Shown: one piece after another, positions 4,853-23,426 of the stretch | Layout of the letters: every line of letters starts with the position of its first letter | Position numbering within the stretch: position 1 is the first letter of the stretch | From: a virus | DNA: 23,855 nt | IMG/VR virus record: IMGVR_UViG_3300046468_001700 | Coordinates: 1 to 23,855 of that record | Direction: 5' to 3' (one strand) | Translations under genes and position numbers: made by a program | The notes under the pieces: model-generated | The model's database searches: none | Seen by the model: the letters and a program-made list of their open reading frames with translations, nothing else | Told to the model about the DNA's origin: nothing

Positions 4853-6817
4853 CTACTCGGCTGGCATTTGAAGCACATCTATTCTCCCCGCTCTATGTCT
4901 TTGAACTGCTACCGTATTTCCATCTCCACTAATCGCAACTGATTTTCCAACATCGTTTTTAGTCGGTTCTGTTCCTGTTCTCCTTACTCCGTTAATTTCA
5001 GTTACAAGCTCCCAAGGGTTCGTTCCAGAGCCTTTATCTCTGTATATTATAACCTGCCCTCCTGAGTCATTACTGCTCCAGCCGACGCTGTCGAGGTCTG
5101 TTACACTTCCATCCTCAGTAAGAAAAGCACTTCCATAAAGTGCGTTTACAATAACCAACAGCGAACCATCATTGCTCATTGCAAGAGAGTTACCAAAATT
5201 AAAATCTCCATACGGCCTGTATTGCGACAGAGATGCGTTCCATTTCTCAATTACAGTTCGTTGACCATAATTTTCACTAATGTTACCCCCAGATGCTGCA
5301 ACAATGGTCCCGTCTTCACTAATCTTATTTCTTGTTTCATGCGTACTAAAGCTGCTGCCAGATGTATATCCGTATGCGTTTAGGATATCCTCTACAAAAA
5401 TGTATTCGGAGTTAACTCCATCCCACTCCCACACCGAGTTTTTCAGCATATTCTCATCGGTGTGTAACACCTTAGAACCGTCTTCGGTTATAGAAACACT
5501 GCTCGTAGCTAACCAATTGCTTGATGTTCCATATACCGAGCCTTTATGAACCCACTTTGAGCTATTGTATTGAAATACTTTAAAATATCCGGGCCTATTT
5601 GAACCCACATTCTGCGGATCAGATCCGACTACAATGTATGTGCCACTTTTATTCAGGGCGACACCGCGCCCAAGGTGTTCATACTCGCCATCTCCCATTA
5701 TATAAGTGCTACCAGTATTATTTTGATTAACATCATCTATAGTATCTTGCCCCCATCTTGACTGGGAAGCATCCCACCGAAATATTTCAACATTTCCGTT
5801 GTTATTGGTCTCTTGGGAGTATGTTGCACCGCCATCAAACCAATCATTGGAAACAGCTACTACATTCCCGTCACCACTTATATGTATTCTTGTAGTTTCC
5901 CCTGTCGAGGTAGAACTCCGTGCTTTACCTAGACTTTCTATAGGGTCTCCTTTTACAGTCCATTGACCACTGCTGTCACTGCGCTCATACACCAAACCCT
6001 TACTCCCACCTACAAATGCAATAGTGTTCCCATCGGTACTGAGAGACATATTAGAAGGATCGCTGTAAGTAATTGAAGACTCGCTGGCGAAAAAGCTTTT
6101 AATTTCAACACCAAGATCTGAAACTCCGGAGTTTGGTTTAACAGTGTCTGAGGTTAAACCAGTAATACCAGTTGTTGGAACTATTATATCCGAGCTTAAA
6201 TTCAAAGGCCCGGCGGCTGGGCTAGCTATTCCACTTAATTGACTTGGGCCACTAACTGGTACAACCACAGTCGAACTTAAGTTTATCGGCCCAACATCAG
6301 GAGCGAGATCTACTGTCTCTAAAGAACTCGGTCCTAATTGAGGAGCTACTACCATTAAATTAAGACTAGAAGGTCCTACTTCAGGAATTACTGTAGTCGA
6401 AGTTACACTTTCCGGTCCTAATTGAGGAGCTACTTCGCCAGTGCCAAGTTCTAGCGGACCAGCAGCAGGAATAGCTATAGATGAACCAAGAGATACAGGG
6501 CCAGCTTGCGGGACTACAGCTGCAGCCACCATTAAGGTAGGGCCAAAAATAGGTTCCGCAAATGCCAACCTTGTTGTGTTAAAAGGTCCTCTTGGAGGGT
6601 CTACATGAAGACCGGGCTTTTCAGCCACACCCGCACGCTGCTTTGGATATAAACCATCCAAATCACCATCTCCGTCAAAATCACCAAATCCCAGTTTAAT
6701 AGAAGCACCATGAGATGCTTTCTCTTCAAGATACTCAGGATTATATTTCCTTTTGTATCTTCTTTGTGAAATATTAGTTAGTTTTTTATGACGGTATATG
6801 TGCGGGAGTTTTGACAT
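4853..6817 (-). CDS. Tail appendage protein: PxxGP repeat stalk plus seven-repeat beta-propeller
   Basis: 654-aa protein with three visible parts. Residues 1-70 are basic and include DFDGDGDLDG (46-55), a classic DxDxDxD calcium-binding loop as in EF-hand, dockerin or FG-GAP sequences. Residues about 86-236 are eleven units of (V/A)-x-P-x-x-G-(P)-x-x-L, with prolines at 89, 103, 117, 131, 145, 159, 173, 187, 200, 214 and 228, a nearly perfect 14-residue period; the last two units lose the second Pro. Residues about 244-654 contain seven (S/K)-x-(D/S)-G units (near 262, 316, 391, 446, 502, 550, 632), most followed by strands like VEIFRWDASQSRW or FKVFQYNSSKWV. This is the layout of a seven-bladed propeller of the kind found in marine microbial surface proteins. 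Such propellers commonly bind ligands or partners, so a host-contact role is likely. It follows the portal gene by 20 bases. Function is inferred; the fold assignment is fairly strong. Confidence 0.85.
   Translation of the reverse strand: MSKLPHIYRHKKLTNISQRRYKRKYNPEYLEEKASHGASIKLGFGDFDGDGDLDGLYPKQRAGVAEKPGLHVDPPRGPFNTTRLAFAEPIFGPTLMVAAAVVPQAGPVSLGSSIAIPAAGPLELGTGEVAPQLGPESVTSTTVIPEVGPSSLNLMVVAPQLGPSSLETVDLAPDVGPINLSSTVVVPVSGPSQLSGIASPAAGPLNLSSDIIVPTTGITGLTSDTVKPNSGVSDLGVEIKSFFASESSITYSDPSNMSLSTDGNTIAFVGGSKGLVYERSDSSGQWTVKGDPIESLGKARSSTSTGETTRIHISGDGNVVAVSNDWFDGGATYSQETNNNGNVEIFRWDASQSRWGQDTIDDVNQNNTGSTYIMGDGEYEHLGRGVALNKSGTYIVVGSDPQNVGSNRPGYFKVFQYNSSKWVHKGSVYGTSSNWLATSSVSITEDGSKVLHTDENMLKNSVWEWDGVNSEYIFVEDILNAYGYTSGSSFSTHETRNKISEDGTIVAASGGNISENYGQRTVIEKWNASLSQYRPYGDFNFGNSLAMSNDGSLLVIVNALYGSAFLTEDGSVTDLDSVGWSSNDSGGQVIIYRDKGSGTNPWELVTEINGVRRTGTEPTKNDVGKSVAISGDGNTVAVQRHRAGRIDVLQMPAE
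6110..6562 (-). repeat. Eleven PxxGP peptide repeats with 42-base period, coding
   Basis: Tandem array inside the 654-aa gene, 14 residues (42 bases) per unit with one unit of 13. At the DNA level a 22-base perfect repeat occurs at 6329-6350 and again at 6413-6434, offset by exactly 84 bases (two units), which shows fairly recent duplication within the array. Other units have diverged in sequence but keep Pro, Gly and Leu positions. Confidence 0.85.
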
Positions 6818-6837: not shown

Positions 6838-8856
6838 TTATTGTTGGTATTGGTTCATGCCTCGTGGGTTGCTATTACCCATACCGGCGGTTGCTGCTGA
6901 AACTCCATCCTTTGGCTCATTGGCATTCTCCATGGCCGATGCATTATCACCAAGCATCTTGGCAATTTCTGCTTCGCTCTTTGGATCGGGCGGTGCTTCC
7001 TGAGGTAGTAATTCATCCGTTCTTTCAAATCCCATAGCATCAAGAATACGCTTGAGCATAGGACGAATGAATGGACGCATTTCGGGAGGTGATTGAAAAT
7101 ATCTATCTTGTGTTTGCAATGCGAGATTTGCTTTCTCTATAGCCCTTTGACCTTGATCCTGAGACAAGATGACTCTGGTATTTATACCAATGTTTCTGAT
7201 CGCATCCGGAGTCATTACTCCAAAGGCTCGAACATCGCCTTCCATGTATTCAAAGACTTCTTCTTCATCCATCGTTGCCATGGATATTTGTACAAGTTTA
7301 GTCAAATGCTCCTCAAATCCACGAACAATTCTACGCATCCAACGACGACCAATCTTAGAAGCTTCTCTTAATGTTGCTTCGACTCCAGTCGCTGTATTAG
7401 CAGGAGCTAAGGCTTGATAATCTCCCTGTGCCATATTGGAAACTCCTAGCCATAGTTGGACGATACCAAACACAAAATCAATTAACTCTTGCGTCTTAAT
7501 ATCAACATTAGGAATCGCAGAGAATTGGATGAAGTCATCAATGTTATATTGATCCTTCAATTCGAAGATCTTACCAGCGTGCAGTTCAACATCCTCAGGC
7601 TCATCCTCTACGGCCTGTGGGTTAACACCCATGATCGGATTGGCTGCGAGTTCATTACGATAGCTCTGAGAATTAAACTGCTTATCGACATACTCCTGAA
7701 AAGATCTGATCCTTTCGGGAAGGCTTTTTCCGCACCACTTGTTTCTATCTTTTCCGATAGAAACAGCGGTGTAGGGAATGCGGTTATCTGGGGTAAGCTT
7801 TGCTACAAATTCGTAATATAAAATCTTTTTGGCCTCAGGGTCTACAAACACACAGAACTCTTGAGGATCACCGGTACCAAGAACATCACGCTTAACCCAG
7901 CATTCAAGAATCTGAACACTTGGATTTTCTTCATTATCAAAATCTAAGTTCTCGATTCTATCTTCGTTCTTCTCGATCGGACTTCTGGGGTTGGCGTCTT
8001 TGTTAACCAAATTGAAATAGTCACCAAAATTTATCCATTCACGCTCGAGGAACATCTTCTGAGCCCAGCGCATATCTTTATCGTAAAGCTCTACTACGAT
8101 ATCGGCGTCCTCAAGAGACTCTGCGGTTGTCGGGCATAGGAAACGATCAGAGTCTATAACCTCTGACCTAGGACCTTTGTACTTAACCTGCTGGGTTGGA
8201 ACACCCTGAGGTAAAGGTTGAAATTCATGAACACCGGGTATCATCTGAAAGCTGGGATCGGAGGCAAGCCGAAGCTCTGACTCACCGGTCATTGGATTCA
8301 TCTCTGGGATAAACTGTGCCTCACCTTCAATAATCGGACCTTCACCAGGAATCTCCTCAAACTCGCCTCGTTCGTTGTTGAATAATCCGTTTCTCTCATA
8401 ATCGTACCAAGTAGATACTTCTTCCTTGTAGGTGGATTTTAATACCAAAGCCCGTTGGATAAATAAATGGAGATAGGATTCTTCCAAACGCTCACGGGTT
8501 TGGCCTTTGTCCTCAAGCTTCCAGTTAAAGTATTTGTCGTAGGCTTCGGCTGATTCCTGATCTCCTGCTCCCTGGGCCTCAAATTTAAAGTATGGGCTTG
8601 TGCCTGTGATCTCATCTTCAGCCCTAGCCATAAAGTGATCGACCACAAGACTGGTCATAGGGATGGATAAATTAGAATTACTAAAAATACTGTCGTACCC
8701 TACCCGATCAGTTCGATCATTATGGTACATCTTCCAAGAAACTTTATCATGCTCAATACGCTCACGGTTGTCCTCCTTGAGCTGCTCTACTCGATCGAGT
8801 AAGTATTTTAGGAGTTTATCCTCCTGTTTTTTGTTTATCTTTAGATTGGTTTCCAT
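6838..8856 (-). CDS. Portal protein (head-tail connector)
   Basis: 672-aa protein recognised as a podovirus-type portal, the dodecameric ring through which DNA is packaged and ejected. The charged helical N-terminus (ILKYLL-like, residues 10-45) is followed by a conserved central region: GKSLPERIRSFQEYVDKQFN (376-395) and ANPIMGVNP (405-413), the helix-rich part common to portals. Then comes VQLWLGVSNMAQGDYQAL (466-483) and ANTATGVEATLREASKIGRR (486-505), a portal signature (TATGxxxxxxxxxxR), leading into the stem and wing helices. The C-terminus (612-672) is acidic then Gly/Asn/Gln-rich and probably disordered or barrel-like. The length is normal for the family. The start is two bases downstream of the giant gene's stop and lacks a Shine-Dalgarno sequence, so translational coupling is likely. 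The assignment is by pattern recognition, not a search. Confidence 0.88.
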   Translation of the reverse strand: METNLKINKKQEDKLLKYLLDRVEQLKEDNRERIEHDKVSWKMYHNDRTDRVGYDSIFSNSNLSIPMTSLVVDHFMARAEDEITGTSPYFKFEAQGAGDQESAEAYDKYFNWKLEDKGQTRERLEESYLHLFIQRALVLKSTYKEEVSTWYDYERNGLFNNERGEFEEIPGEGPIIEGEAQFIPEMNPMTGESELRLASDPSFQMIPGVHEFQPLPQGVPTQQVKYKGPRSEVIDSDRFLCPTTAESLEDADIVVELYDKDMRWAQKMFLEREWINFGDYFNLVNKDANPRSPIEKNEDRIENLDFDNEENPSVQILECWVKRDVLGTGDPQEFCVFVDPEAKKILYYEFVAKLTPDNRIPYTAVSIGKDRNKWCGKSLPERIRSFQEYVDKQFNSQSYRNELAANPIMGVNPQAVEDEPEDVELHAGKIFELKDQYNIDDFIQFSAIPNVDIKTQELIDFVFGIVQLWLGVSNMAQGDYQALAPANTATGVEATLREASKIGRRWMRRIVRGFEEHLTKLVQISMATMDEEEVFEYMEGDVRAFGVMTPDAIRNIGINTRVILSQDQGQRAIEKANLALQTQDRYFQSPPEMRPFIRPMLKRILDAMGFERTDELLPQEAPPDPKSEAEIAKMLGDNASAMENANEPKDGVSAATAGMGNSNPRGMNQYQQ

Positions 8857-8858
8857 GT

Positions 8859-11800
8859 TTAGATAAGAGCGAGCGCCTGAGCTTTTTTAATTGTTGCGGT
8901 TAGCATATTTAACTCTTTTCTCTCAAGGTCTTCAATCCGTTGGGATTTTTCAGAATGACTCAACTTAGAGTTTTCAATTTTCTTCTTTAAATCTCTAAAT
9001 TTAGATAACCTTCCGTCCATGTACTTCATTTGAGGTATCCACTGCAGAACATTAGCGTTTTTCCGTCTTATAATAGCCGCTTCAGCTGGACCGACTTTTT
9101 GTGCATCAGCTAATGCGTCTTTAACAGGGAGAACGCTATCTCGAAGATTGTAGTATGCTCTGCGAGTTGCGCTGCCATATGTGGTAGTTTTTAAGAATCT
9201 ATTAACGATAGGAGCTTTATTTATGTCCAAATCATATTCTTTTTTGCTACTAATTAATGGATATACTAAATCGCCAAACATATAATTAATGATCTGACCT
9301 GGACCTGCAGTGTAACCCATTACAAGATGCTCCATCTCAGATCCAGACATATCAAATTGATACTCACCCCTTGCCTTAGCTAGTGCCGGGTTACCTCCAA
9401 ATATACCGCCAACAGATCCTTTGATGTTATCATCGCCGCCCATGAACTTGTTTATCGCTTCAGAAGTACTGGTCCAAAACTCCTGCGTTCTTTTTGGATC
9501 CATTTTAAATGCCGGCTCTTCCGACCCGAATTGACGGTCGTCCTTACGGATCGGTGATCCCATAAAATTTTGATTGGCCATAAGATCAACGATCGGTTGA
9601 CCGAATGAAGGGACAAACGCACCTGATAGAGTTGCACCACCGATCGGATTGAACGCATTCATTACAGAAGTTGCGTTACGGCTGAACCAGTCCAAGGGCC
9701 CAATACCTCCGCGCCCAGTCCAATAATTAGCCACAATATCAGCAGTAGTCTGACCGAGCGCCCAGAACACATTATATCCAAGAGCTAAAGGAATACTGAA
9801 TGCACCAGTATCCCTACCTGTTTTATCTTCAAAACCGGGTATCTTGTTAACACCTGGAATGATAAGGCTAGTGTCTCTTTTGTAAGAGCTGATCGTATCG
9901 TAGTCAGGCATCTCCTCATCGTCATCGTCATCGAGAAGACGGTTAAACATAGCAACACCGAAGGATGCAGCAATAATGCTACCGAGAAGCATTTTACGCT
10001 CCTGAGGAGTACGGTTTTTGAGTGTTCTGTAGAATCTGTCTGCTGAGTTCATCGATGCCCCGAAGAACACAAACAAAGAGCCGAATGACTGCGTAAGGTT
10101 GCCTTTCTGATTGAAGTCTACGGTTACATTACGAGAAATTGTGGCTGCTTGCTGAGGCGTTCTTCCCGCTTCAATTGCAGACCAGAAAGAGGACATACGA
10201 ATTGAGTTTTCAACCGCGCTGTTAGCAGAATCAACATAATCAACCATAGACTTGAGAAACTTCTTAGCACCCTTCTTCGATTTAGGCTTCTGGTCTCGTA
10301 GTTTCTCGATTAGCTCAGGAACAGTCTCGTGTTTAAAATATCCAATCTTAGCACCCGCAGCTTTTGCAAACTGATACATTTTAGCGTAGTCACCTGATTT
10401 TAATATTTCCTGAGCACTTGCTATATCCATGGGGAACTTACCAGGAACTTTCTCACCCTTAGCCAAAGCTATTTCAGTTTTGAAAATAGCTTTCATAAAA
10501 CCAGTTAGACGTTTACGCTGAAAAGTACCTTTAAACACATCTTTCTTATCAGTTTCCGACAAATGAATCGCGGCACTCTGCAAGTCACGGAAGAAGTTGG
10601 GAATGATGAAAGCGGGGTTTAAGGATGTGAATACACGAGCAAGATACCTTGTTATGGTATTAAAAACTCCTAGTACTCGTGGGAGCGCCTCATATCTAAG
10701 ATTCTTTATCGATACAGCAATCCTTGCTCCGCCTGGCTTAAACTTAATCATGTGCGGCTCACCCATTTTACGATAGACAAATAAAAGCGGGTCGTTACGC
10801 ATGTTTTGCAGCGACGAGTCTATCGTCTTACGGTACATCTTAAGACCAGGCACATCTTCACCGTCTACGACTACTTTCTTCTCCTCTATCTTGTAGCCTT
10901 GCTTTACATCTATTTTGCTGGAATCTTTTTCGAATATCTTATCAAACTGTTTTTTGATCTCAGCTTTTGTAGATTCATCAAGATTTTGAAGCTCGGCTGG
11001 TAAAGTGCTTTCCCCCTCGTTTAGTTCAGGGTAAGAGATTTCTCTCATATATTCGTAGATTCTACCAAAAGCCTGGGATACTGTATTCTTATGTGCTCGG
11101 ATCGCGGCATTGAAATATTGAGACTGAGCAACTGCGAATACAGTATTCGGATCTGGAGCTATGTTGTTAAGCCTACCAAAAGCACCCTTCTGCATCAGAA
11201 CGTGCTTTGGTTGATCCCATCCCTTACCTGCGGATGCACTGGATTTACCTACTGCTTCGTATGCCTGCTCGTTATCAAATAATGTCTCGGTCTCACCCTC
11301 GAATCCCTGCATCGGAGCATATGAGTAGTTATCTTTAAGTTTAGCTTTAGAATGCTTAGATATGTCATACTCGGACATGGAAAGTACCATGGCCTTCATC
11401 TCGTCAAGATCTCCTTTACGGATTAAACCACCCTCCTGCATTAGCTGCAAAGCCTCGCGGTTCATGTCATAGAAAGCCTGTAGAGGGTTTGTTGAATCGC
11501 CAATGAATCCGGATATGGCTGAGGTTTTTTCCATTTCCTGCATCTGCTCAATAGCATATTCAGTATCGATACCACTCAGCGAATCGCCGCGTTCATTCAG
11601 CATTTTCTGCAAGCCTTTATACTCAGCACTATCCGGATCAAGATCCTTAAGATACTCCTTGTACATCTTCTTCAACCTTAGGTTTCTACTTGGAGCAGCT
11701 CGGAACAAAAGGTATCTGCCAAGCATTTCATTGGAAACACCGTGCTTCACCATCGCATCCTTGATAGGTTGGACAAATTGGATCTGAGACTGCTCTACGG

Positions 11801-14800
11801 TATTATAACCCTTACCATAGTACTGATGCCACAAGCCTCCGACATCTATTGCATCAATAAGATTCTGATCTTCAATCCCTATCTCTTTAAGGAAATTCTC
11901 GACTACCTTTTTTACGGGAGCAGACTGATCGATTACAGCGGTCTGAAAATCAAAATTCTCGAGAGTTTTGCGATACTTGTCTTTAGTCTCATCATCAAAC
12001 CCAGCTCTTTCGGCCAGACTCTTTAGCAGGCTCAGACGAGTGTATCTGTCCTGCATGCCTGATGATAGTGCATAGCTCGAACCAAGAGCTATGTCATCCG
12101 GCTGGCCTTTTTCTATTTTTTTCCGGGCGTTGTAATTATCTGTTTTTGCCTTAATCCCTGGCTTGAGTTTTTTGTAGTATTCGTTGTGCCAACGCTTTAA
12201 TTCATCCCAATTTACATCATACGCACTTATAGAAGCGGGTGGACCGACCTGTTCAATATACTCAGGATCAAACTCTTCATCAGGAAGCACTTTTTTGTAC
12301 CATTCGGGAGGTACGGCTCTATTGTCATTAATTTTTTTAGAGAATAGACGCCAAAGCTCTTTACTATTTTTAGGAGCGTTTTTTGGCAGATATTCAAATT
12401 TAGACCAGTCGATATTATTAGATTTAGCCAGAAGGTTCAGTTTGTTCGTGTCAGGGATTGTTTTAAATGAGCTGTTAAAGCTGGAACCGAGAGCGGAGTC
12501 TCCGTCTATCTGCTCAAACAAGAACTGCTTCTGCTTCGGACTCTTCTGCCCTGCGACCTTTGGCTTTTGGCCTACGGTTTCATCCTTTAAAATTAGCCTT
12601 CTGAATGTTTTGTAATTACCGTGCTTCTTAAGCTTTTGGCTGTATGCATAGTCTTCAAAATTCTTGGTTGGCTTAGGTAGCTGAACAAATTTCCAGAAGA
12701 TATCGTTGTTTCTAAAAGCATCAATTACTCCGTCCAAAGTCAGATTGTCAGAGGTCTCAAGTCTGAAGAGTGTGGGCATGATCTTCTTGTCATCAGATGC
12801 TTTGGCATCGTGTTTTTCAATCTTGCTGAATATTGGATGATTTGCAGATGCAAACGACTGAGGTATACTTTTATTCTGTATAGCCCGACCAGGCATATCT
12901 GAAGTAGACTCTTTTTCTAAAGAGTCTTCACTAAACACTTCTCGGTTAGTTTTTCCGGAATCAAACTCGGTGTTTTGGAAAACTCCTTCAGGTAGTTCGC
13001 CTTCTGCGTCATCAAGATGCATGAGCATATTTCGCTGCTGAAGATTACCTCCGGAGGCCATGTTCTTCGATGTTTTATCTTCATCAAGAGATACACCCTC
13101 AGAGATACGAAGTCTTCCTGCATCGGCCACAGCCTTGATCAAAGGCAGAGTCATTTCGGCCATAACCTTAGGATCAGGCACACCGTCTGTGAACATAGTT
13201 CCTTCTACGCGGTTCCCATTAACGAAAAAGCTCTTACCATCAAAATTCCATTTGTGTTCGGTCTCTTTGTTTAGCTGTGCGGCAATTGATTCAGGATTTA
13301 AACCTACTTTCTGGTATGCTGCTGTAATAAACTTGAACCAAATATACGGAAGAATCCCACCGGCTGGTCCGCCAGGTAGTTGCTTAAGCTCTTTACCACC
13401 GCTTGCCAAAGTTCTTTCTGTTTTACTAGAAGGCTCCCACGCGAGCTGCCCCATTGTTTTAACAATATTACCGTTATTTTCGTTAGTCTTTTCAACAACA
13501 TGTTGTACGAACTGAGCTACACTCACATCGTTACCGGAAGTAACTCCTTTTTTAGCTTCAGCATCAAAATCAGAAATAGTGTCAAGCACCATTCTGGAGT
13601 ATGCTTCGTTTGCTTTCCCTTGAGCTGATTCGGGTAGAGCTCTGTTGTTGCTTGCGTATCTCCATACACCCTGCTTGCGGATAACTTTTACCTTCTTGTT
13701 ACCACGAGACGGCATCTCGATCGGAGTAGACATGTCCTCAGGAGGTGTCGAAGATATTTGCTTTCTCAATCTTTGCTCAATCGAGAATGCACGAATTGGA
13801 TCTGCAAGCTCGGAGAATCCAAAAGTGGTTGTGTGTTCAACAAAATTAGTACCTTCTTTTTCTCTACCTTCAGAAAACATTCTTAATGTAGAAATACCTT
13901 CATCAATCGCACCTCTCTTAAAATCGGCACGATTTTTACCTTCTCCTGATATAACCTCCTGATCCTGCTCTCCCGCAACTAAAAACTCATAATCATCACC
14001 TAAAGATTCTAAACCTAAGAATCTGAAATCCTTAACTTCCTTTTTCCGGATAATCTCTTCATCCAACTTAGCTTGGGCCTCTTCTTTAAGGGCTTCGTAT
14101 TGTCCGAGGAGTTCCCTGAGGCGGGCTGCATTTTCAGTGAGTAAACTGACTGACAAAGGGCGCTTATCCTGCTCTTTCAAGGCTCGCTCTTTCTCGATCT
14201 GAGAGTAGGTTACTCTACGACCAACAAACTTGCTGTTAATGACTATGAGAGATTCATTGATGGCATTTTCTCCTAGAGTATCTACTGCATCGAAAAGAAA
14301 GCGTCTTTGCGGGCCTCTATTGCTAGATGTGCCCGCATCTTTTTTGATATCGCTCTCTATGTAATCAAGCATCTTGTTGATTGCATCTTCACGATCCTGA
14401 TAAAACAAAAATTCTGTGAGTGCAGATGTCCAGGGCTTACCGCTGTGAACTTTGGGAAATAAACCTGCGGATTCTTCGCCCTGCATATCGGCCAATGCAA
14501 AAGGATCAAATATGATGTTGGCGAGAGCTCGCTTCATTCTAGTAATAGAATCTTGGCGACTAAATTTATCAGGACCTATACGATCAGCTCCAAAATCTTT
14601 ATCTGCTTTAGATGACTCCTTTGAGTTTTCCTTCTCAAGCCTCTGAATTTCTTCCTGCAAGAATACAGCTCTACGCTCAAGGATATTCATTATCCGTTGA
14701 AGCTTGTATCCGCTAAATTGTCTGTCGTCTAAAATCTCAAGCTTAGATCCCTGTGCAACTTCGTAGATCACTGTCTCCTCAAGGCGTAATCTTTCCATAC

Positions 14801-17800
14801 GCCCATTGGTCAGCTCGCGGGTAAATCTTTTTCCTGTTTCGCGCATCTGCTTCTTATCCATCATATGCTGACGGAAAAGAGCCATGGCTGCATGAGTAGT
14901 TCCACCATTCTCTACCTGAAAATATACGCGGTCTTTGCGGGGTCGTTCGTTACCTGCGTCATCCTTAACAAGATTAGTCATAGGCTTTTCCATAGCCTTC
15001 TGAGGAAGTCCGGCCGATGCACGGGCGGCGTCAAGCATGTTTAAGTAATCTTCTACGGTACCATCAAACCAAGTAAGCTTCTTATCTTTATCGTATATGT
15101 GTCGGTTGAAAGCTTGCTTAATTGCAGGGTCTGCCGGGCGGCCTATAGATACTCCTTCAGCCTCACTAGCAACACCGTTTTTCATATCTTCGACAAGAGA
15201 GTCCTTACCTTTACCAAAATGCTCGATTATCATTTCGTCGGTAAAGTCTTCAACCTTGGTCATCGCACCGTCAGAAACCTCATACAGGCCACCGTTACCG
15301 TTTTGATCGATCTGTAATGTGAGCTTCTTATTGTCGCGGGTAATATCTTTTGTCTGAACCGTTATCGGTTTCCGGGCAGGTGCATCGGGAACTTCACTTT
15401 CGGGGATTACATTACCTTTAGTGTCGTATACCAAGAATCCTACTCTCTTAGGTTCTTGAGCCTTTGTCTTTACCTCTTTCTTTTCAGCTTTCCCGGGTTC
15501 AGGAACAATACGCCAGTTTGTGTACTGCCACAGTACATTTGAAGGATCATCTACCTTAGTTTTTGTACCTTTTCGGTCATAAATCTTGTAACCAGATTCA
15601 GAGTTATAGCTGGCTAGCTCACCAAGTGTCATGCGGCGCAACTTACCATCAACCTTCACTTGATACTCAAAATGCGGAACATCGCGCCAATCGATTTTTT
15701 GCTTCTCGGGCTCGATCGCAAGGAGCATGTCCTTCATGATCTTGATATTTGCTTTAAGCTGTTTTATCTCAGCAGCTACCGCTCCCTTTTGAAATGCACT
15801 AGCTTGTACTGGTTTCTTCTTGGCTTTGGCGGGAGCTTTCTTAGCAGGGGCTTTTTGGTCCTCAATTTCGTAAAACTTAATATACTGATGCTGACTTTTC
15901 TTTACCCTCTTTTTTAACTCACCTAGTTGGTAACCGAGTTTTTTATCAAACTTCTCTGGTTTACCCTTTAGCTTTTTAGGATCTTTTGGATAGAAATCGG
16001 CTAACTGTCGGGTTTTAGGATTGAGATAAACATATTTACCCGGCCCATTTTGTTTGACCACGACATAACTTGATCCGAGGGCGGAATCTTCAGTCTTCTG
16101 CCTTTTCTGAGCATTCTTGCTAAGAAGTCGTTTAGGATCTTCTAAATACTTAAGTCTTTCTTCGGATTCGACTAATCGACCATTTATAAGAGCTGCAGCT
16201 CCTTCAACTTCCTGCTCGAATTGTTTGTAGGCTTCAACGACTCTTTGTGCATCCGGCTCTTTGGAGCTTACAATTTCTGTAAGATCATCGGCTACTCTTG
16301 CACCAGAAAGAACTGCAAATTTTTGGAGCTCTTTAATTTGTAGCATCTCAGCGATGATCTGGCCGTGTGTAATATCTGCTTTAGTTAATGCTTCAGCCTG
16401 TTTTTTGCTTTCCTTATCACCCCGTGCGATGAGCTCGTCTTTTCTCTCCTGCAATAAATTTTCCTGTATGCTGTTTGAGCTTTTTTCAAACTCCTTCTCG
16501 TTCATCAGGGCTTTTGTATTTGCCGCTGTTATTTTACGAACCTTGCTCAGATCATTCTTACTTGTGCGGGTAGTTAAGTTCTGGACAATGTTTATTGAAG
16601 ATGTGCGAGAGTCCGTAATTTTATCTACTTCTTCTTTTTGCTGAGCTACACGCTTGGTTCTGGTTTCATCTTCTGATGCTATCTTACCATCTGGGCCAAC
16701 TGATTCAGTTCCTCTATCCGGTACTTTTGTAGTTAGCTTATCGACCGCTTCTTTGGCATCTTCGCCTTCCAACCCTTCATATATCTTGGCAGTAGCTTCG
16801 GTGTCTTCCACACCTATCTGGGCCTCGGCTAACGGGCGAACCATATCGCGAAGCTCTCGCTTGGTGTACAGGCTCATATCTGTCGATAGAACCTTTTCGC
16901 CAATGATCTGATTGATCATGTTGACCAGGCGTTTGGCTTCGTCCAATCCTTGAGTTTGGGCAACAGTGGCTACTTCACGCATCATGGCATTTAAGCCATC
17001 TTCATCCCCCATTTGGCTAAGTTTGTTCTCACCCTCGAAGAAACGGTATTTCATTCCTGGGCGTTCATGCTGAAACTGACCAAAAGTTACATTGTTTCCA
17101 AGCCCCTCTTTGAACCCTCTTGGTGTATATCCCATGAACTGAAGAATCCTTGCATCAAGCATAGCCCGCTGCTCGGCCTTACCGCCCTGAGCCTTGGATC
17201 CTGCGAAACCTTCGACCATTGGATGAAGCGTATTCTTAAGAAAGTTTTGCAACTCGGTCTTTACCGAATTGTCTGCTGTATTTCCTGTTAAAACACGAAC
17301 AAAGTTATGAGCGAACCACTCTTCTGCCTGCTGCAAAGAGCTCATATTTTTCATCGCGGCATCTATCTTTTTCTGACCCGCTTCATCCAATGCAGAATAC
17401 TTCTGATTGTGATTCTTTGTATCATACTGAGCCATCGTGTTTTTCTGCTCATCGGGTCCAATAGCCGCATACAAATCAGTCAGCTCCTTTGTGGAAACAC
17501 CCATAAGGATACGGGCAAAGTGACTGCCCTCATGCAAGAATACACCTAATGGATTCTCAGGGATTGTCTTACGATTGATAAAGATGACATTGTCTTCATC
17601 CCGGCCGACATCCTGATTGTCCACATGATGAAAAGATCCCTGCTGATTCTTGTCCGAAAACGGTGTACGATCAGCGATAACGATCTTAAGATTCTCCATC
17701 TGTTCCTTATTCGATGCATACATACGAGCCATGTTATCGGTAAGGATGTTCAGTGCATTCTGTCTCTCCTCCTCGCTCTGAAAGTTACCCTGATCTATAA

Positions 17801-20177
17801 TATGTTGGGCTGCGGCCTGTGACGTCTCGAAGGTGTTATATACATTGGAGAAACCAGCCGCATCAATCTTACCAGTTCTACCCATCTCTGTTGCTTTATC
17901 GGCCGACAGATTAAACGGAACATTAGAAACATCCAGATTTCGTGTGGATGTGTACTCATACGCACCCCCTAGAAGACCAGGACCAAGACCGATTAAACCT
18001 TCCGCAGCAATCGCATTTGTGTCATACGCTTCGCCTGGTTCTTTTGTCCATGCCTGACCAAGAAACTCACCACCCATACCAAGAGTTGCATCAGCTGCAA
18101 CATCAGTTCCAATATTTCTTGCTCTCTGAAAGGCAGTGAAACGAGGGTATGTCTTCTTGGATCTTGCCCAAGCCTTACCATCAATAAGCTTACCGCCCTT
18201 GAACGCATTACCACCATGGTGCAAAGCTGCGTTAAGACGACCAGACATCATACCGGAAGCGGCATCAAACAATGCAATCGGAAGTCCCTTCTTAATAGCT
18301 TTCTCCTTCATCGCATCACGAGTAATTTGATTATTCCAAGCTGCTGCGAATACCTTTGGATTCTTCCAATCAATATTTAACTCCTGCATACCCTGCAATA
18401 TCATGCTGGAGTATTCGATCATTAGTGATGAAACACCCCAGTTAGCACGGGCGGCATACCCTGCACCGGCCAGTGTTCCGCCGGGTACTGGAGTTGCAAA
18501 ACCAATAGCAGCACCGGTGGGGATGGTGTACATACCTGTTCTTACATACGCCGGAAGGAATGATGATAGTGACTCAACAAATAACTCAGGAATCGCTTCA
18601 GTATTATCAAATAATAAATTACTTACTGAATCCCACAGCCCTTTTGATTTGTATTGTTGGAAATTCTTAGCTGCCTGACTTGTAGGAATCTCTCCCAACT
18701 GTTCAGCAGCTTCAATAAATTTTTCAAAGTCCGATTGATCAGCAGCATTGAGGAAAAAATCGTCCGCATATTTGCTCATCTCGTTTACTTTTTGACCACG
18801 ACGAAATGCATTTGCGATTGACTGACCCATGCGAGCAAAGAAGCCTTTCTTTTCAGTCTGCTCTACAATTTCATCGGTCAGTCCATACTCATTCGCAAGC
18901 TGAATGGTCTTGTCAAAATAGATTTTTGCATCGTCTATCTTCTTACGATCAGCGGCTTTTCGGCCTTTAGCAAAATAATCAATCTGTGCTTGCTCGTATG
19001 TGTCGTAAGATGCTCTTACCGCCTGGACAATCTTGGCGACATTTACTCTTTCTTCACCACCAAGCTCATTGATTGCCTGCTCTATAGGTACACCCTTGTA
19101 CTCTTTGATTCCACGATCGCGGAGATCGCTAAGATCAAGAAGATCGACATCATTTCGGCTCATTCCTGTAGGGCGATTGTCCATCAACCCGTTCTGAGAA
19201 AACATGAATCCGCGATCCCGCATCTTTCGCTCCTGCGCCACAAGGCTTCTTCTCTTGCCAAACACTCCTGCGAAGTCACCGTCAGCAGCAGCCTGCATTC
19301 TAGCCTTCTGATCCTGGGAAGATACCGAAAGTTTTCCTGTTTTATAATCAGGTAAATCACCTACACCTCTTCTCGGATCCGTGTTTTCGAGGTTTATAAC
19401 CTGGCCAGACTTGTAGTCAAAAAGTGGATCCTCAAAGCTGTAATTTTCAAGGGTCTCTGCCATCTGCTTACGGCGACTTGACGAAGATCCTGAGCTGGAA
19501 GACTTGTTCTTAAGCTGATCATCCATAGCCATGCGGGTCTGCATAGGTATAGATGTTAAATGATTCCTGAGTTTATCCTGCTCCTGACGGTAGAAATCCA
19601 CCATTTCAGTTTTCTGATCACGCTCAGCTTTAAGTTTACGATATTGATCTCTTAAACCGTTCGGCGCATTCCACTGGCTAAACTGGCTAAGTGACTGGCG
19701 AGCTAATTTCGTATCGTCAGACTCACCGAAAAAACCATCCTTTTGCTGGCTGGTTTTTAGCGTTTTCTCGTACAGTTCATCAAGATTCCTAAAGTAGTCA
19801 TCCTCGTTCTCAAACTCATCTATTGGATTAAGACTTTTAAAGAAAGGCATGAACTTGTTATCCTTAAAATCCTCATACCTTTTCTTTGCTATTGAGGCTG
19901 AGCTGTTAAACGCAGATACATCGCTATTTAAATACTGTAACTGCTTTTTACCCCTATCGTATGAGTCAAGGTACTCGTCTTCAAAAACATTCTGAAAAGC
20001 TGGCTGACCACTTGATTGCGGATCTACTGGCGGTTGAACCTGCTGTTGCTGAGGCATCGGCCCCCCAAACGGTTGGTATTTTTTCTGTACCGGTTTGCTG
20101 GTAAATTGACTTAGGCTGTCTTTTTTTTCGCCTGAGTAATCATCAGCCCCCAGATCTATGTCGTCGAAGAGGGACAT
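8859..20177 (-). CDS. Giant polyvalent phage protein, 3772 aa, with HExxH peptidase-like motif and LPD38-like C-terminus
   Basis: Single uninterrupted frame filling almost half the window. Residues 1-500: disordered, Gln/Pro-rich then coiled-coil, with a Ser-rich linker near 225. About 528-600 and 680-745: hydrophobic Gly/Ala-rich segments (e.g. TGAAIGFATPVPGGTLAGAG) of the kind seen in phage ejection and large polyvalent proteins, likely membrane-active. Residues 882-886: HEGSH, a zincin HExxH motif in the context GVFLHEGSHFARILMG, with a possible third ligand at E952/E953 (AEEWFAH). About 1000-1500: charged helices and an Ala/Lys/Pro linker near 1450. The middle has no recognised fold. About 3160-3770: SLNPAFIIPNFFRD, a hydrophobic helix near 3396 and NKAPIVNRFL near 3660, matching large polyvalent protein associated region 38 (LPD38) of Iyer and colleagues. 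ALGSS(Y/F) occurs at 1366, 2562 and 2697. Known relatives are virion-borne multi-domain proteins ejected into the host. Ejection and self-processing are inference. No RNA polymerase or lysozyme motifs were found. Confidence 0.85.
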   Translation of the reverse strand: MSLFDDIDLGADDYSGEKKDSLSQFTSKPVQKKYQPFGGPMPQQQQVQPPVDPQSSGQPAFQNVFEDEYLDSYDRGKKQLQYLNSDVSAFNSSASIAKKRYEDFKDNKFMPFFKSLNPIDEFENEDDYFRNLDELYEKTLKTSQQKDGFFGESDDTKLARQSLSQFSQWNAPNGLRDQYRKLKAERDQKTEMVDFYRQEQDKLRNHLTSIPMQTRMAMDDQLKNKSSSSGSSSSRRKQMAETLENYSFEDPLFDYKSGQVINLENTDPRRGVGDLPDYKTGKLSVSSQDQKARMQAAADGDFAGVFGKRRSLVAQERKMRDRGFMFSQNGLMDNRPTGMSRNDVDLLDLSDLRDRGIKEYKGVPIEQAINELGGEERVNVAKIVQAVRASYDTYEQAQIDYFAKGRKAADRKKIDDAKIYFDKTIQLANEYGLTDEIVEQTEKKGFFARMGQSIANAFRRGQKVNEMSKYADDFFLNAADQSDFEKFIEAAEQLGEIPTSQAAKNFQQYKSKGLWDSVSNLLFDNTEAIPELFVESLSSFLPAYVRTGMYTIPTGAAIGFATPVPGGTLAGAGYAARANWGVSSLMIEYSSMILQGMQELNIDWKNPKVFAAAWNNQITRDAMKEKAIKKGLPIALFDAASGMMSGRLNAALHHGGNAFKGGKLIDGKAWARSKKTYPRFTAFQRARNIGTDVAADATLGMGGEFLGQAWTKEPGEAYDTNAIAAEGLIGLGPGLLGGAYEYTSTRNLDVSNVPFNLSADKATEMGRTGKIDAAGFSNVYNTFETSQAAAQHIIDQGNFQSEEERQNALNILTDNMARMYASNKEQMENLKIVIADRTPFSDKNQQGSFHHVDNQDVGRDEDNVIFINRKTIPENPLGVFLHEGSHFARILMGVSTKELTDLYAAIGPDEQKNTMAQYDTKNHNQKYSALDEAGQKKIDAAMKNMSSLQQAEEWFAHNFVRVLTGNTADNSVKTELQNFLKNTLHPMVEGFAGSKAQGGKAEQRAMLDARILQFMGYTPRGFKEGLGNNVTFGQFQHERPGMKYRFFEGENKLSQMGDEDGLNAMMREVATVAQTQGLDEAKRLVNMINQIIGEKVLSTDMSLYTKRELRDMVRPLAEAQIGVEDTEATAKIYEGLEGEDAKEAVDKLTTKVPDRGTESVGPDGKIASEDETRTKRVAQQKEEVDKITDSRTSSINIVQNLTTRTSKNDLSKVRKITAANTKALMNEKEFEKSSNSIQENLLQERKDELIARGDKESKKQAEALTKADITHGQIIAEMLQIKELQKFAVLSGARVADDLTEIVSSKEPDAQRVVEAYKQFEQEVEGAAALINGRLVESEERLKYLEDPKRLLSKNAQKRQKTEDSALGSSYVVVKQNGPGKYVYLNPKTRQLADFYPKDPKKLKGKPEKFDKKLGYQLGELKKRVKKSQHQYIKFYEIEDQKAPAKKAPAKAKKKPVQASAFQKGAVAAEIKQLKANIKIMKDMLLAIEPEKQKIDWRDVPHFEYQVKVDGKLRRMTLGELASYNSESGYKIYDRKGTKTKVDDPSNVLWQYTNWRIVPEPGKAEKKEVKTKAQEPKRVGFLVYDTKGNVIPESEVPDAPARKPITVQTKDITRDNKKLTLQIDQNGNGGLYEVSDGAMTKVEDFTDEMIIEHFGKGKDSLVEDMKNGVASEAEGVSIGRPADPAIKQAFNRHIYDKDKKLTWFDGTVEDYLNMLDAARASAGLPQKAMEKPMTNLVKDDAGNERPRKDRVYFQVENGGTTHAAMALFRQHMMDKKQMRETGKRFTRELTNGRMERLRLEETVIYEVAQGSKLEILDDRQFSGYKLQRIMNILERRAVFLQEEIQRLEKENSKESSKADKDFGADRIGPDKFSRQDSITRMKRALANIIFDPFALADMQGEESAGLFPKVHSGKPWTSALTEFLFYQDREDAINKMLDYIESDIKKDAGTSSNRGPQRRFLFDAVDTLGENAINESLIVINSKFVGRRVTYSQIEKERALKEQDKRPLSVSLLTENAARLRELLGQYEALKEEAQAKLDEEIIRKKEVKDFRFLGLESLGDDYEFLVAGEQDQEVISGEGKNRADFKRGAIDEGISTLRMFSEGREKEGTNFVEHTTTFGFSELADPIRAFSIEQRLRKQISSTPPEDMSTPIEMPSRGNKKVKVIRKQGVWRYASNNRALPESAQGKANEAYSRMVLDTISDFDAEAKKGVTSGNDVSVAQFVQHVVEKTNENNGNIVKTMGQLAWEPSSKTERTLASGGKELKQLPGGPAGGILPYIWFKFITAAYQKVGLNPESIAAQLNKETEHKWNFDGKSFFVNGNRVEGTMFTDGVPDPKVMAEMTLPLIKAVADAGRLRISEGVSLDEDKTSKNMASGGNLQQRNMLMHLDDAEGELPEGVFQNTEFDSGKTNREVFSEDSLEKESTSDMPGRAIQNKSIPQSFASANHPIFSKIEKHDAKASDDKKIMPTLFRLETSDNLTLDGVIDAFRNNDIFWKFVQLPKPTKNFEDYAYSQKLKKHGNYKTFRRLILKDETVGQKPKVAGQKSPKQKQFLFEQIDGDSALGSSFNSSFKTIPDTNKLNLLAKSNNIDWSKFEYLPKNAPKNSKELWRLFSKKINDNRAVPPEWYKKVLPDEEFDPEYIEQVGPPASISAYDVNWDELKRWHNEYYKKLKPGIKAKTDNYNARKKIEKGQPDDIALGSSYALSSGMQDRYTRLSLLKSLAERAGFDDETKDKYRKTLENFDFQTAVIDQSAPVKKVVENFLKEIGIEDQNLIDAIDVGGLWHQYYGKGYNTVEQSQIQFVQPIKDAMVKHGVSNEMLGRYLLFRAAPSRNLRLKKMYKEYLKDLDPDSAEYKGLQKMLNERGDSLSGIDTEYAIEQMQEMEKTSAISGFIGDSTNPLQAFYDMNREALQLMQEGGLIRKGDLDEMKAMVLSMSEYDISKHSKAKLKDNYSYAPMQGFEGETETLFDNEQAYEAVGKSSASAGKGWDQPKHVLMQKGAFGRLNNIAPDPNTVFAVAQSQYFNAAIRAHKNTVSQAFGRIYEYMREISYPELNEGESTLPAELQNLDESTKAEIKKQFDKIFEKDSSKIDVKQGYKIEEKKVVVDGEDVPGLKMYRKTIDSSLQNMRNDPLLFVYRKMGEPHMIKFKPGGARIAVSIKNLRYEALPRVLGVFNTITRYLARVFTSLNPAFIIPNFFRDLQSAAIHLSETDKKDVFKGTFQRKRLTGFMKAIFKTEIALAKGEKVPGKFPMDIASAQEILKSGDYAKMYQFAKAAGAKIGYFKHETVPELIEKLRDQKPKSKKGAKKFLKSMVDYVDSANSAVENSIRMSSFWSAIEAGRTPQQAATISRNVTVDFNQKGNLTQSFGSLFVFFGASMNSADRFYRTLKNRTPQERKMLLGSIIAASFGVAMFNRLLDDDDDEEMPDYDTISSYKRDTSLIIPGVNKIPGFEDKTGRDTGAFSIPLALGYNVFWALGQTTADIVANYWTGRGGIGPLDWFSRNATSVMNAFNPIGGATLSGAFVPSFGQPIVDLMANQNFMGSPIRKDDRQFGSEEPAFKMDPKRTQEFWTSTSEAINKFMGGDDNIKGSVGGIFGGNPALAKARGEYQFDMSGSEMEHLVMGYTAGPGQIINYMFGDLVYPLISSKKEYDLDINKAPIVNRFLKTTTYGSATRRAYYNLRDSVLPVKDALADAQKVGPAEAAIIRRKNANVLQWIPQMKYMDGRLSKFRDLKKKIENSKLSHSEKSQRIEDLERKELNMLTATIKKAQALALI

Positions 20178-20187
20178 TACTTAGGTC

Positions 20188-21642
20188 TTAGGAGAAAGGG
20201 TTGTGAATCTCGTCTTCGCCCCGATGCTTACGGAAAGAGTTTATGACATCAAGCTGCTGCCTTTGGGGCATAGCATTAATGTTACGCATCATGGTGTCAG
20301 TTCGGGGGGTAGGTGCAGTAGCAACCGGACCAGTATACTCTCTAGCTCGTGGTCTGAACTCAGTTCCAAAAGGATTGTTATCCGTGAAGCGTTTGCGGTT
20401 TTCGTCATCCTCATTGTCCTGCCTAAGTAGATTATTCAACATAGTCTTTTGATTCTGACCTTGAGGTGCCTGTATGAAACGGCCCTTCGCTGATCCTTCG
20501 TTAAAGCCCATAAAACCTTGGCTGCCGTATCTAGGTATGTATCTAGGGGTCGGTTTTTTAGCTTCTGCGGCGGGAGCGGGAGCCGGAGCCGGAGCCGTAG
20601 CCGGAGCCGGAGCATTATTCTCACGAGTCATGAACTCAGTTTTTGGCATGGCAGGCGTATCCGCTGTTGTCTGCTCCTGAACCATACTAAGATCCTTAGC
20701 CCTATCGTATTGAGGTGGGCGGACTTGAGGTTCAAATTCAGTTTCCTGAGGAATATTATACGGCATGTCAAGACTCTGCCCACCCCCAGCAACAAGATCC
20801 TCTGGCATTTTCCTAGAGGCTACAGAAGCTCCACCCGTTACTCTCGTAAGCTCGCGCTCAAGATCAGCATCGGACATATTATCAAACTCTTCCTGAGTTA
20901 TATATTCCCGGGTTTGCGAAGCAGTAGAGGCTTTTGGTTGAGATTCATCGTAAACACCAGCAATACGTTTTTTAACAAATTTTGCACGCATTTCAGCTTG
21001 AGTTTTATCGTCTAATTCATCGAAAGATTTACCTGAAGATATAGCTCCGTAAGGGCTTCTATTATAAGTTTCACTTAAATCACGCTCTCTCGCGTCCATG
21101 ATTTCCTGAATCCGCTCATTGGCTTTTGATTTCTTATCCTCGCCACGAATCTGACGACGCGCTGAATTAAGAAGATCACCTTGTATATTCTCCTGTATAG
21201 CCTCACCACGATCGCGCTTACCTTCAAAACTACCTATAGCCCTCCCTGTACGAAGCTCATTCATACCTGGAGATGCTAAATTCGGCTCCTCCGTCTGCTC
21301 TGGGCTTTGTCTGGATACAGGTTCATCTAAAGTGGCTTCAGGATTCCTTTTTTGCACATTTTCTTGATACTGCGGGTCATCTAAAAGTTGCTGCATAGAT
21401 CTTCCACCAAGCTCCTTCTCAAGACCTGATATTTTATTTGTAAGACCTTGATTAATACTGCCAGTCCATGCATTGCGGAGCATCGGATTATCTGAATCCT
21501 TAAGATCATCAAACCCAAATATCGAATCTTTATTAGTATTTATCCAATCTTGATCAACTTCTTCAAGTCCGCCTAAAGGTCCACCACCCCTTTTTTGCTT
21601 TCTAGCGTAAAGTTTTCCGTCACGAGGTTCTAGCTTGTACAT
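20188..21642 (-). CDS. Disordered charged protein, 484 aa, unknown function, between terminase and giant protein
   Basis: No family recognised. The N-terminus (MYKLEPRDGKLYARKQKRGG, then DQDWINTNKDSIFGFDDL) looks partly ordered. Residues 60-300 are highly charged, Gln/Glu/Arg/Lys-rich and helix-prone (e.g. RIQEIMDARERDLSETYN). Residues about 344-358 form an Ala-Pro linker (PAPATAPAPAPAPA), followed by PRYIPRYGSQGFMGF and a basic-aromatic C-terminus ending DEIHNPFS. There is no signal peptide, membrane segment or catalytic motif. It ends 10 bases before the giant gene and begins 23 bases after terminase, so all three are probably co-expressed. Its position and low complexity suit a virion-internal, scaffold-like or ejection-partner protein, but a chaperone for the giant protein is equally possible. 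The start ATG at 21642 is the first in frame; no strong ribosome-binding site is seen. Confidence 0.75.
   Translation of the reverse strand: MYKLEPRDGKLYARKQKRGGGPLGGLEEVDQDWINTNKDSIFGFDDLKDSDNPMLRNAWTGSINQGLTNKISGLEKELGGRSMQQLLDDPQYQENVQKRNPEATLDEPVSRQSPEQTEEPNLASPGMNELRTGRAIGSFEGKRDRGEAIQENIQGDLLNSARRQIRGEDKKSKANERIQEIMDARERDLSETYNRSPYGAISSGKSFDELDDKTQAEMRAKFVKKRIAGVYDESQPKASTASQTREYITQEEFDNMSDADLERELTRVTGGASVASRKMPEDLVAGGGQSLDMPYNIPQETEFEPQVRPPQYDRAKDLSMVQEQTTADTPAMPKTEFMTRENNAPAPATAPAPAPAPAAEAKKPTPRYIPRYGSQGFMGFNEGSAKGRFIQAPQGQNQKTMLNNLLRQDNEDDENRKRFTDNNPFGTEFRPRAREYTGPVATAPTPRTDTMMRNINAMPQRQQLDVINSFRKHRGEDEIHNPFS
20569..20613 (-). repeat. GC-rich hexanucleotide tandem repeat encoding an Ala-Pro linker
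   Basis: Near-perfect tandem copies of a six-base unit (ggagcc on the plus strand) within the 484-aa gene, encoding alternating Ala and Pro with one Thr interruption. Alternating Ala-Pro runs form stiff extended linkers. Such a short-period repeat is prone to copy-number change during replication. Confidence 0.85.
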
Positions 21643-21665
21643 ACAGAAAGAGTAGTTGCGGCTAT

Positions 21666-23426
21666 TTAAGGCATCAACCGCTTGTAATTCTTCTTAATAG
21701 AACCTAGAGGCGCCCGCATGAAGCCATCAGGGCACATCATGGATGGATTTTTACGTAACATCCGATTGCTAATCTTTTTCTTCTTGGGACTCTTGAATGT
21801 CGTTGCACTGTCAATGTTATACAATGCAATAGCCGCAGCCAGGACATGATCATCATGATGACCCGGAGCTGCTTCCGGCTTTCCGCGATCATTAATTACA
21901 AAGGTTTTAAACTCTCTTAACACTCCTTCATCCGGGATATCCACATTCTCTTCTATAATTTCCGAAGCCAGATGGTCTATAACGGTCTTTCGTGTGATTT
22001 TATCCGTAGACCACCCAAAACTCTTCTCAACCATGCCCATAGAATCGTTATATTTACGCCTTCTATAAACAGATAGACCCATTTCCAGTAGATACTTTAA
22101 TAATGCCAGCCCAGAATTGTTAACTTCGGGGATTACGAACGCATTTCCATAAAATCTAGCAGCCGCTTCAACCTCATGCGCTAATATGCCAATATCTACG
22201 CGCGAATGGTGCAATGCTACCAATCGGGGAACATGCCAATCGCCATGCCAATCCTCAAAGGGTGCCCTCCAAACCTGCACGGAATGGTAATCAGGATCTG
22301 CAGCCAAGCCCTGGGTCTGTTGATCCTCACCCGTGCATGTATCCGCAGATATTAAATACTTGGAATCATACTCAGGCTCATCATAAATCTTCCACATACC
22401 AGCCCTATCGGGCGTGAATGAAGAGTTTTTGCTGTCACCCTGAACAGCTAAATTCCCAATACGGCATTTCTGACCGCTACACGCTTTGTGCATAGAATCA
22501 ACATTGGCCATATGAAACCTAGGGCGAGATGACATAAGGAAACATTCATCAGGATCCGAAGGATACTCCTGTCGAAACTTACTTAAATCACCGTTGCACT
22601 TGTCCTGGAGGACACGACGACGCCAATTCAATTGCTCATAGTTAACATCAAACCGTTTCATCTCCTGCTTCTCGTCCTCGGTCATCGTATCAATGAAGTC
22701 CTGCTTCATATCATCGTTCGCAAACGGTACTACGGAGTCCTCAAATTCAAACCAGGCGGCGAATATCTTGGCCCATTCATTGTCCTGAACCCATGTCCTA
22801 TAGAACCAGCCATTCGGACCGTTCGGTGTGGAATCAGCCACAACCAGGGATACCGCATCCCCATCATATAAAGACTGCAAATAACCCAAAGCAGGGTCAC
22901 GCTCGCCCTGCATAGGCCAGAACGCAACCTCCGTCATGTTACCAACCTGGATTGTTCCGCTTCTTCCCGCGTTTTTGGAACCCGCAGTTTCCTTTCCGTA
23001 TTGGCTTCTTGTTTTTAGCTTTATCAGATCCGCGAGATTGCCACCGTCCTCCAGGTTTATTCCTGTACCGTCCCACGGAAAATGATCGTTTTCCGCGTAT
23101 CTTCGATATATCTCGAACACTTTGTCCGATGTACCGCTTATGTCCCCCATCAGACTCCCGCTTAAGTTCTCGTACTTTCTCATATGATGATATGTCAGGG
23201 CTTGAGCGCATGTGCTCGCTCCCTTCTGACGAGGTTTCAGAATGATCATTTTGCATGGGAGACTTTCAATTTGGCATTTTCTGTAATGGGCGAACATACG
23301 CCTCTGAAGCGTATTGGCTTTTGGTTTGATATCTTTACCACGCTTATCTTTAATTACCGCAAATGTTGAAAACCAGACCTCCGGATCAATGCGGATGAGG
23401 TCTGCCAGCTGCTCAGGATCACTCAC
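21666..23426 (-). CDS. terL: Terminase large subunit (DNA packaging ATPase and nuclease)
   Basis: 586-aa motor that drives DNA into the procapsid through the portal and cuts the concatemer. ATPase part: Walker A-like KPRQKGAST (64-72); Walker B with catalytic acid in MTEVAFW (Glu166); coupling-type motif VADSTPNG (196-203). Linker region: RQEYPSDPDECF (285-296), a common terminase signature. RNase H-like nuclease: Asp362 in LISADTCTGE, Glu434 in PEVNNSG, and Asp525/Asp526 in HHDDHVLAAA. All key acidic residues are present and the length is normal, so it should be active. The start is taken as GTG at 23426: the codon directly follows the TAA of the 96-aa gene, and GGAAG sits 6 bases upstream. 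The next in-frame ATG would remove much of the N-terminal ATPase domain. No obvious small terminase subunit precedes it. Confidence 0.95.
   Translation of the reverse strand: MSDPEQLADLIRIDPEVWFSTFAVIKDKRGKDIKPKANTLQRRMFAHYRKCQIESLPCKMIILKPRQKGASTCAQALTYHHMRKYENLSGSLMGDISGTSDKVFEIYRRYAENDHFPWDGTGINLEDGGNLADLIKLKTRSQYGKETAGSKNAGRSGTIQVGNMTEVAFWPMQGERDPALGYLQSLYDGDAVSLVVADSTPNGPNGWFYRTWVQDNEWAKIFAAWFEFEDSVVPFANDDMKQDFIDTMTEDEKQEMKRFDVNYEQLNWRRRVLQDKCNGDLSKFRQEYPSDPDECFLMSSRPRFHMANVDSMHKACSGQKCRIGNLAVQGDSKNSSFTPDRAGMWKIYDEPEYDSKYLISADTCTGEDQQTQGLAADPDYHSVQVWRAPFEDWHGDWHVPRLVALHHSRVDIGILAHEVEAAARFYGNAFVIPEVNNSGLALLKYLLEMGLSVYRRRKYNDSMGMVEKSFGWSTDKITRKTVIDHLASEIIEENVDIPDEGVLREFKTFVINDRGKPEAAPGHHDDHVLAAAIALYNIDSATTFKSPKKKKISNRMLRKNPSMMCPDGFMRAPLGSIKKNYKRLMP

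Follow-up and report, generated by a model that had tools for sequence, protein, structure and literature searches.

The giant protein encoded in the 23,855-nucleotide stretch of viral DNA studied here (IMG/VR virus record IMGVR_UViG_3300046468_001700, positions 1 to 23,855; hereafter the window) carries three copies of the short peptide ALGSS(Y/F), which on balance probably serve as processing sites of a phage polyprotein cut by its own embedded zincin metallopeptidase. The evidence that carries this proposal is the placement of the peptide at the junctions between modules and the concerted change of its spelling in related giants. The giant itself is, by its domain content and setting, a phage polyvalent protein of the LPD38 type in the sense of Iyer et al. 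(PMC5512222), since LPD38 (PF18857) scores 72.7 bits against a curated cut-off of 27, the gene is flanked by an SU10-type portal gene and, one small gene away, the terminase gene, and the protein matches giant PHROGs of unknown function. Family membership and the position between terminase and portal further suggest that the giant of this marine phage is probably carried inside the head and ejected into the host along with the DNA. A zincin-like region and LPD38 are the domains recognised in it, with none in its middle. The features on which the argument turns are as follows.

8859..20177, minus strand: giant LPD38 polyvalent protein, 3772 amino acids (aa), ~425 kDa; open reading frame (PF18857, E 5e-20; giant PHROGs of unknown function)
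16065..16082, minus strand: motif copy J1, ALGSSY, residues 1366-1371, the weakest site
12495..16064, minus strand: middle block, residues 1372-2561, no known domain; aligned with L111, L096, L091, L092 and G009
12477..12494, minus strand: motif copy J2, ALGSSF, residues 2562-2567, after the end of the shared middle block
12090..12476, minus strand: 129-aa cassette bounded by J2 and J3, residues 2568-2696; G009 and L057 lack it; no Pfam match
12072..12089, minus strand: motif copy J3, ALGSSY, residues 2697-2702, start of the C-terminal module
8859..12089, minus strand: residues 2697-3772, the conserved C-terminal module; LPD38 at residues 3424-3635

The motif copies in the window

The three copies lie on the minus strand exactly where the preliminary description of this DNA had placed them, in the contexts TEDSALGSSY (J1), GDSALGSSF (J2), and DDIALGSSY (J3); the formula proposed there, D-(S/D)-(S/I)-ALGSS, is one residue too long, the part truly shared being D-(S/I)-ALGSS. 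ALGSS is the sole 5-mer present three times in the giant, and a thrice-repeated 5-mer of any kind arose in 8 of 1000 shuffles of the protein. The observation that the copies use different synonymous codons was confirmed: of 16 codon pairs for the same residue, 5 match, against an expectation of 4.2 under the codon usage of this gene, and because codon sharing is at chance level, it is the peptide and not the DNA that appears to be conserved in the window. The Lys/Gln/Glu-rich linker described before each copy was recovered for the first two (95th percentile of K/Q/E content) and was weaker for the third (87th percentile).

Junction position across lineages

Related contigs were taken from IMG/VR, a portal search yielding 60 loci and a C-terminal profile search 58 loci; longer records were read for 13 relatives and approximately 27 related giants were compared for the motif, individual relatives being referred to by our own handles such as G001 or L024. 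The portals recovered by the portal search are 77-98% identical to that of the window, and representative giants share 35-49% identity with the window in the C-terminal module; no record with a similar portal was detected in the phage collection. The giants share a layout of a conserved N-terminal part of ~1000 residues (with HExxH near residue 880), a variable middle, and a conserved C-terminal part of ~1075 residues.

Between the window and G009, similarity resumes exactly at residue 2697 (J3), and in the junction alignment this C-terminal junction is spelled LGSSY, RTLNSDA, or QLGSQL or LGAR according to the phage set, the peptide in L105 and L113 being xGSDY (e.g. QGSDY). In every class, the part of the middle block that corresponds to window residues ~1620-2534 stops a short distance ahead of a motif copy, which reads ALGSSF in the window, ALGASF in L033, RTLNSDIG in G004, and RTLNSDAG in G007. 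In G009 and L057, the middle block continues straight into the C-terminal junction copy, and the copies at 2562 and 2697 therefore bracket a cassette that those two lack. The alignments establish a junction role for the motif; the earlier statement that each copy precedes a new segment is borne out by homology at 2697 and 2562, and weakly at 1366. Aligning homologues at the junctions, the check proposed at the outset, showed that the position is conserved but that the spelling is lineage-specific and varies in concert.

Concerted variation of the peptide

In an unbiased search for repeated 7-mers, the junction motif ranked at or near the top in the window, G003, G004, G005, G007, G010, and L024. 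When the junction heptamer was scored against the upstream part of its own giant versus that of other giants, the test statistic T was 3.89 (permutation standard deviation 0.74), and none of 20,000 permutations reached as high a value. LNSD(A/I) recurs in six of the eight LNSD-class giants and in none of the 19 others (Fisher p 9e-5, with some close kin among them), LGSS-type peptides recur in five of eight giants of their own class and in two of 19 others (p 0.011), and QxGSQL is present in three copies in G005 and in none of the 26 other giants. No copy of the motifs was found in other proteins of the same records. These sequence comparisons demonstrate that the spelling changes at all junctions of one giant together, lineage by lineage.

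The window and G001 possess near-identical terminases (97%) and portals (98%) and differ in giant and motif, so that the spelling is probably determined within the giant gene or beside it. Across window positions 6838-23426 compared with L002/G001, the giant shows only ~17-56% identity per 100-residue bin; judging from this comparison, the giant gene appears either to have been replaced or to be diverging far faster than its neighbours.

The embedded zincin-like domain

The candidate enzyme resides in the conserved N-terminal part of the giant, where the HExxH motif mentioned in the preliminary description is indeed present at residue 882.

17082..18044, minus strand: zincin metallopeptidase region, residues 712-1032; model with a predicted local distance difference test (pLDDT) of 81; zincin endopeptidases head the structural alignments
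17520..17534, minus strand: HEGSH (HExxH), residues 882-886; H, E, and H invariant in relatives
17319..17321, minus strand: E953 of AEEWF, presumed third zinc ligand; invariant in the alignment, ligand role inferred

HExxHxAR and the downstream EWF are invariant in 16-18 giants, the catalytic residues being kept wherever the region is present. A zincin fold is suggested, the best rows given by VIA-align being zincins with Z up to 7.2 (below a caution limit of 8), and E953 falls within a helix at model residues 236-252; on this model, the giant bears the gluzincin (clan MA) signature of HExxH plus a downstream Glu on the following helix. The zincin domain is also the sole protease found in all complete giants of the group. 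Neither S78 prohead proteases nor Clp proteases were found in ten records, and no other protease was found by Pfam among the 20 relatives' proteins tested.

The zincin profile had no match among PDB sequences, a Pfam scan of the window at E 0.1 did not detect the zincin with PF18818 (MPTase-PolyVal) or any other Pfam model, and PF18818 had no match in ten records, where the controls were without a match too. The zincins of seven LNSD-class giants form one clade (support 100/99) apart from the window's group. A closer affinity of the window's N-terminal half, zincin included, to the LNSD class was suggested by a whole-length blast (45%, G010) and was rejected, the zincin region being nearest to that of G009 (56%).

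Cassette exchange and cassette content

In near-identical giants, the edges of exchanged segments fall within 0-3 residues of the motif, which stands at both ends of the exchanged segment in G004/G007 and L024/G004 and at its right end in G003/G010, L102/L117, L105/L113, L024/G007, and L091/L092. At the breakpoint of L091/L092, the peptide is PTALGSG, a less convincing candidate. The cassettes found in relatives include ART-PolyVal, SprT-like, and extra HExxH domains. In L024, two motif copies enclose an interval of 263 residues, of which the ART-PolyVal match spans residues 6-259, and in G003 this domain is likewise found between two copies.

Tat-like (twin-arginine translocation) RRxFLK sequences mark the start of a cassette inside the giants of L033, L109, L097, and L112, with four such patterns of RRxFLK plus a hydrophobic stretch seen against 0.1 expected; in two of these four giants, the Pfam TAT_signal model gives E 0.022 and 0.045, below its cut-off. 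The Tat-like start lies within four residues after a motif copy or motif-like peptide in L033 and L109 and follows AGSS in L097; no clear motif precedes it in L112. A Tat signal must normally be near the N-terminus, and a cut at the motif would provide one.

The Tat-like cassettes are related to one another and are ~430-490 residues long (residues 667-1092 in L033, from 2210 in L109, from 148 in L097, and from 2792 in L112); no stand-alone relatives of them were found in viral contigs. Extra HExxH domains occur in the variable middle of the G004, G005, G006, and G009 giants (loci L071, L072, L074, and L080), besides the conserved N-terminal HExxH, the G005 giant being 5845 residues long. An equation of the 129-aa cassette of the window with the cassette following the motif in G005 (targeted p=0.002) was set aside, as other relatives score equally. 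The giants of L104 and L091 are ~72-93% identical over residues 1-370 and 19-56% identical beyond, and by this comparison, the N-terminal part of this pair recombines separately from the rest.

Proposed processing of the giant

The giant would be made as one chain comprising an N-terminal zincin part, at least one effector cassette, and the C-terminal module with LPD38. These exchangeable modules would be joined by short linkers, each carrying one lineage-specific recognition peptide. Its own zincin would cut at or beside the copies of this peptide, in the head or after ejection, thereby releasing the effector modules; use of all three sites in the window would give products of ~153, 135, 16, and 120 kDa. 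A single enzyme would have to recognise all junctions of the protein that contains it, which would explain why the peptide varies at all of them together. Cleavage, the zincin as the cutter, the exact bond, the timing, and ejection are inferred. The self-processing polyprotein first suggested for this giant is partly supported: it accords with the placement at junctions, the concerted spelling, the exchange of cassettes at the motif, and the intact catalytic residues of the zincin, and fits poorly with the site at 1366.

Several observations weigh against this proposal. J1 is poorly conserved, with the motif in two of six aligned proteins and its sole counterpart among the aligned relatives in L096 (SLGASW); it is the weakest site and, taken alone, could be a chance occurrence. 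About half of the giants are without a clear second copy. The zincin clade and the motif class share descent, and their association is therefore confounded by phylogeny. The fold match is modest (Z 7.2), and Foldseek, run with the zincin model on PDB and BFVD, gave no match at E<0.001. The giant of the distant relative L126 (4805-12487, 2560 residues) repeats VSYQL(S/A)PA, with one copy immediately ahead of its C-terminal module, yet no HExxH was detected in it or in flanking open reading frames and no zincin was found there, making L126 a possible counter-example to cutting in cis. Finally, the N4 RNA polymerase, which has a zincin-like domain, is reported to be packaged uncut (PMC5512222, PMC12633501).

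In the distant LPD38 proteins L130 and L138-L142, the C-terminal module is immediately preceded by FS(R/K), and a K/E/P-rich linker often holds another copy; L130, L138, and L139 have HExxH or HExxxH between two such peptides. FS(R/K) occurs 19 times in these proteins against 7.4 expected, the junction copies being counted in, a pattern that is suggestive of a junction peptide. It is conceivable, albeit at slightly less than even chances, that polyvalent giants self-process with a lineage-specific code in which zincin and junction peptides coevolve, and that this would hold across LPD38 proteins of unrelated phages with other spellings such as FS(R/K). Were zincin and peptides to coevolve as one system, incoming cassettes (ART, peptidases, Tat-type) could be released only by carrying or acquiring the local code.

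Alternative explanations

The sites might instead be cut in trans by another protease, from the host or from the phage but unrecognised, and the zincin would then be an effector with another target. Phage P1 offers a precedent, its DarA being processed by a prohead protease distinct from it (PMC12810830), L126 repeats its motif with no zincin found, and the protease search covered only part of the related records' proteins. An enzyme encoded elsewhere in the phage is, however, difficult to reconcile with the differing motifs of the window and G001 on nearly the same terminase and portal background, with the lack of S78, Clp, and other Pfam proteases in the sets described above, or with the confinement of the motif to the giants, and we regard this explanation as unlikely.

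Unlikely to a very similar degree is a role of the copies as docking or packaging tags bound, and not cut, by a partner such as a chaperone, a scaffold, or a different region of the giant. Concerted variation would likewise be expected if a single partner bound one linker peptide per module; however, the portal is ~83-98% identical across all motif classes and is therefore not the docking partner, and, were there no cut, Tat-like N-termini directly following motif-like peptides would be hard to account for.

A third explanation, that the motif is a DNA-level scar or microhomology of cassette exchange devoid of protein function, draws on the LNSD class, in which most codons of the copies are identical (21/32 in G004; 5/5 in G010 and in L117), and on breakpoints that fall within the motif. 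It is made rather improbable by the chance level of codon sharing in the window and the 13/31 identical codons in G005, where the peptide is kept nonetheless, as it also is at junctions without visible recent exchange. Chance repetition or a plain conserved domain edge, to which single-copy relatives and a twice-repeated 6-mer of any kind in 30% of shuffles of the window giant might lend some credence, is very improbable given the rarity of thrice-repeated 5-mers, the class-specific repeats in several lineages, and the permutation test; for J2 and J3 taken by themselves, the chance reading is unlikely.

Comparison with known systems

Processing of polyvalent proteins by their own metallopeptidases was predicted in the survey of Iyer et al. 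(2017, PMC5512222). The giant of the window resembles the LPD38 subgroup described there in its LPD38 domain, zincin-like metallopeptidase, ART-PolyVal in relatives, and virion gene neighbourhood. It differs in that its zincin is matched neither by PF18818 nor by other Pfam models, and a recognition site with concerted site variation is not described in the available part of that account. No earlier report of a junction site code was found in the open-access literature.

Like the N4 virion RNA polymerase, an ejected virion protein of ~3500 residues with a zincin-like domain, the giant would travel with the DNA; the HExxH domain of N4 (9pnt residues 2124-2354) figures among the structural alignments of the window zincin, weakly (Z 3.9). 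Unlike N4, no polymerase was found in the window giant, and the N4 enzyme is reported as packaged unprocessed (PMC5512222). DarA and DdrB of phage P1 are comparable as antirestriction-type internal head proteins that are proteolytically cut (PMC5512222, PMC12810830), but the single cut in DarA, close to its N-terminus, is made by a separate enzyme, the prohead protease Pro, and no such protease was found here. The arrangement is also reminiscent of eukaryotic RNA virus polyproteins, which have one protease within the chain and several similar inter-module sites with virus-specific spelling; potyvirus NIa-Pro is an example (PMC7833154). This likeness would be one of analogy, as there is no homology, the zincin does not have a chymotrypsin-like fold, the cassettes are swapped, and cleavage is here a prediction.

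A concrete lineage-specific site together with a candidate cognate zincin renders the self-processing prediction of 2017 testable. The motif gives exact module boundaries in many uncharacterised giant phage proteins, which is useful for finding anti-defence effectors, and if the proposal is true, the lineages would provide natural protease-site pairs with different spellings.

Gene neighbourhood and minor observations

Three neighbouring genes provide the context of the giant.

6838..8856, minus strand: portal protein, SU10-type, 672 aa (PF23899, E 6e-32)
20188..21642, minus strand: 484-aa protein, function unknown; its gene separates those of the terminase and the giant
21666..23426, minus strand: terminase large subunit, 586 aa

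An AlphaFold model of the middle block was too poor (pLDDT 48) and was not used. In the relative G003 (L067 2296-5443), RIIB-like and RIIA-like genes are adjacent. The N-terminal part of a 654-aa protein of the window (4853-6817) consists of short GPxxL-type repeats, and an SLGSS found in it was dismissed as coincidental, being part of this separate repeat and not the junction motif. A GGAGCC repeat of 6.8 copies at window positions 20573-20613 encodes an Ala-Pro run in the 484-aa protein.

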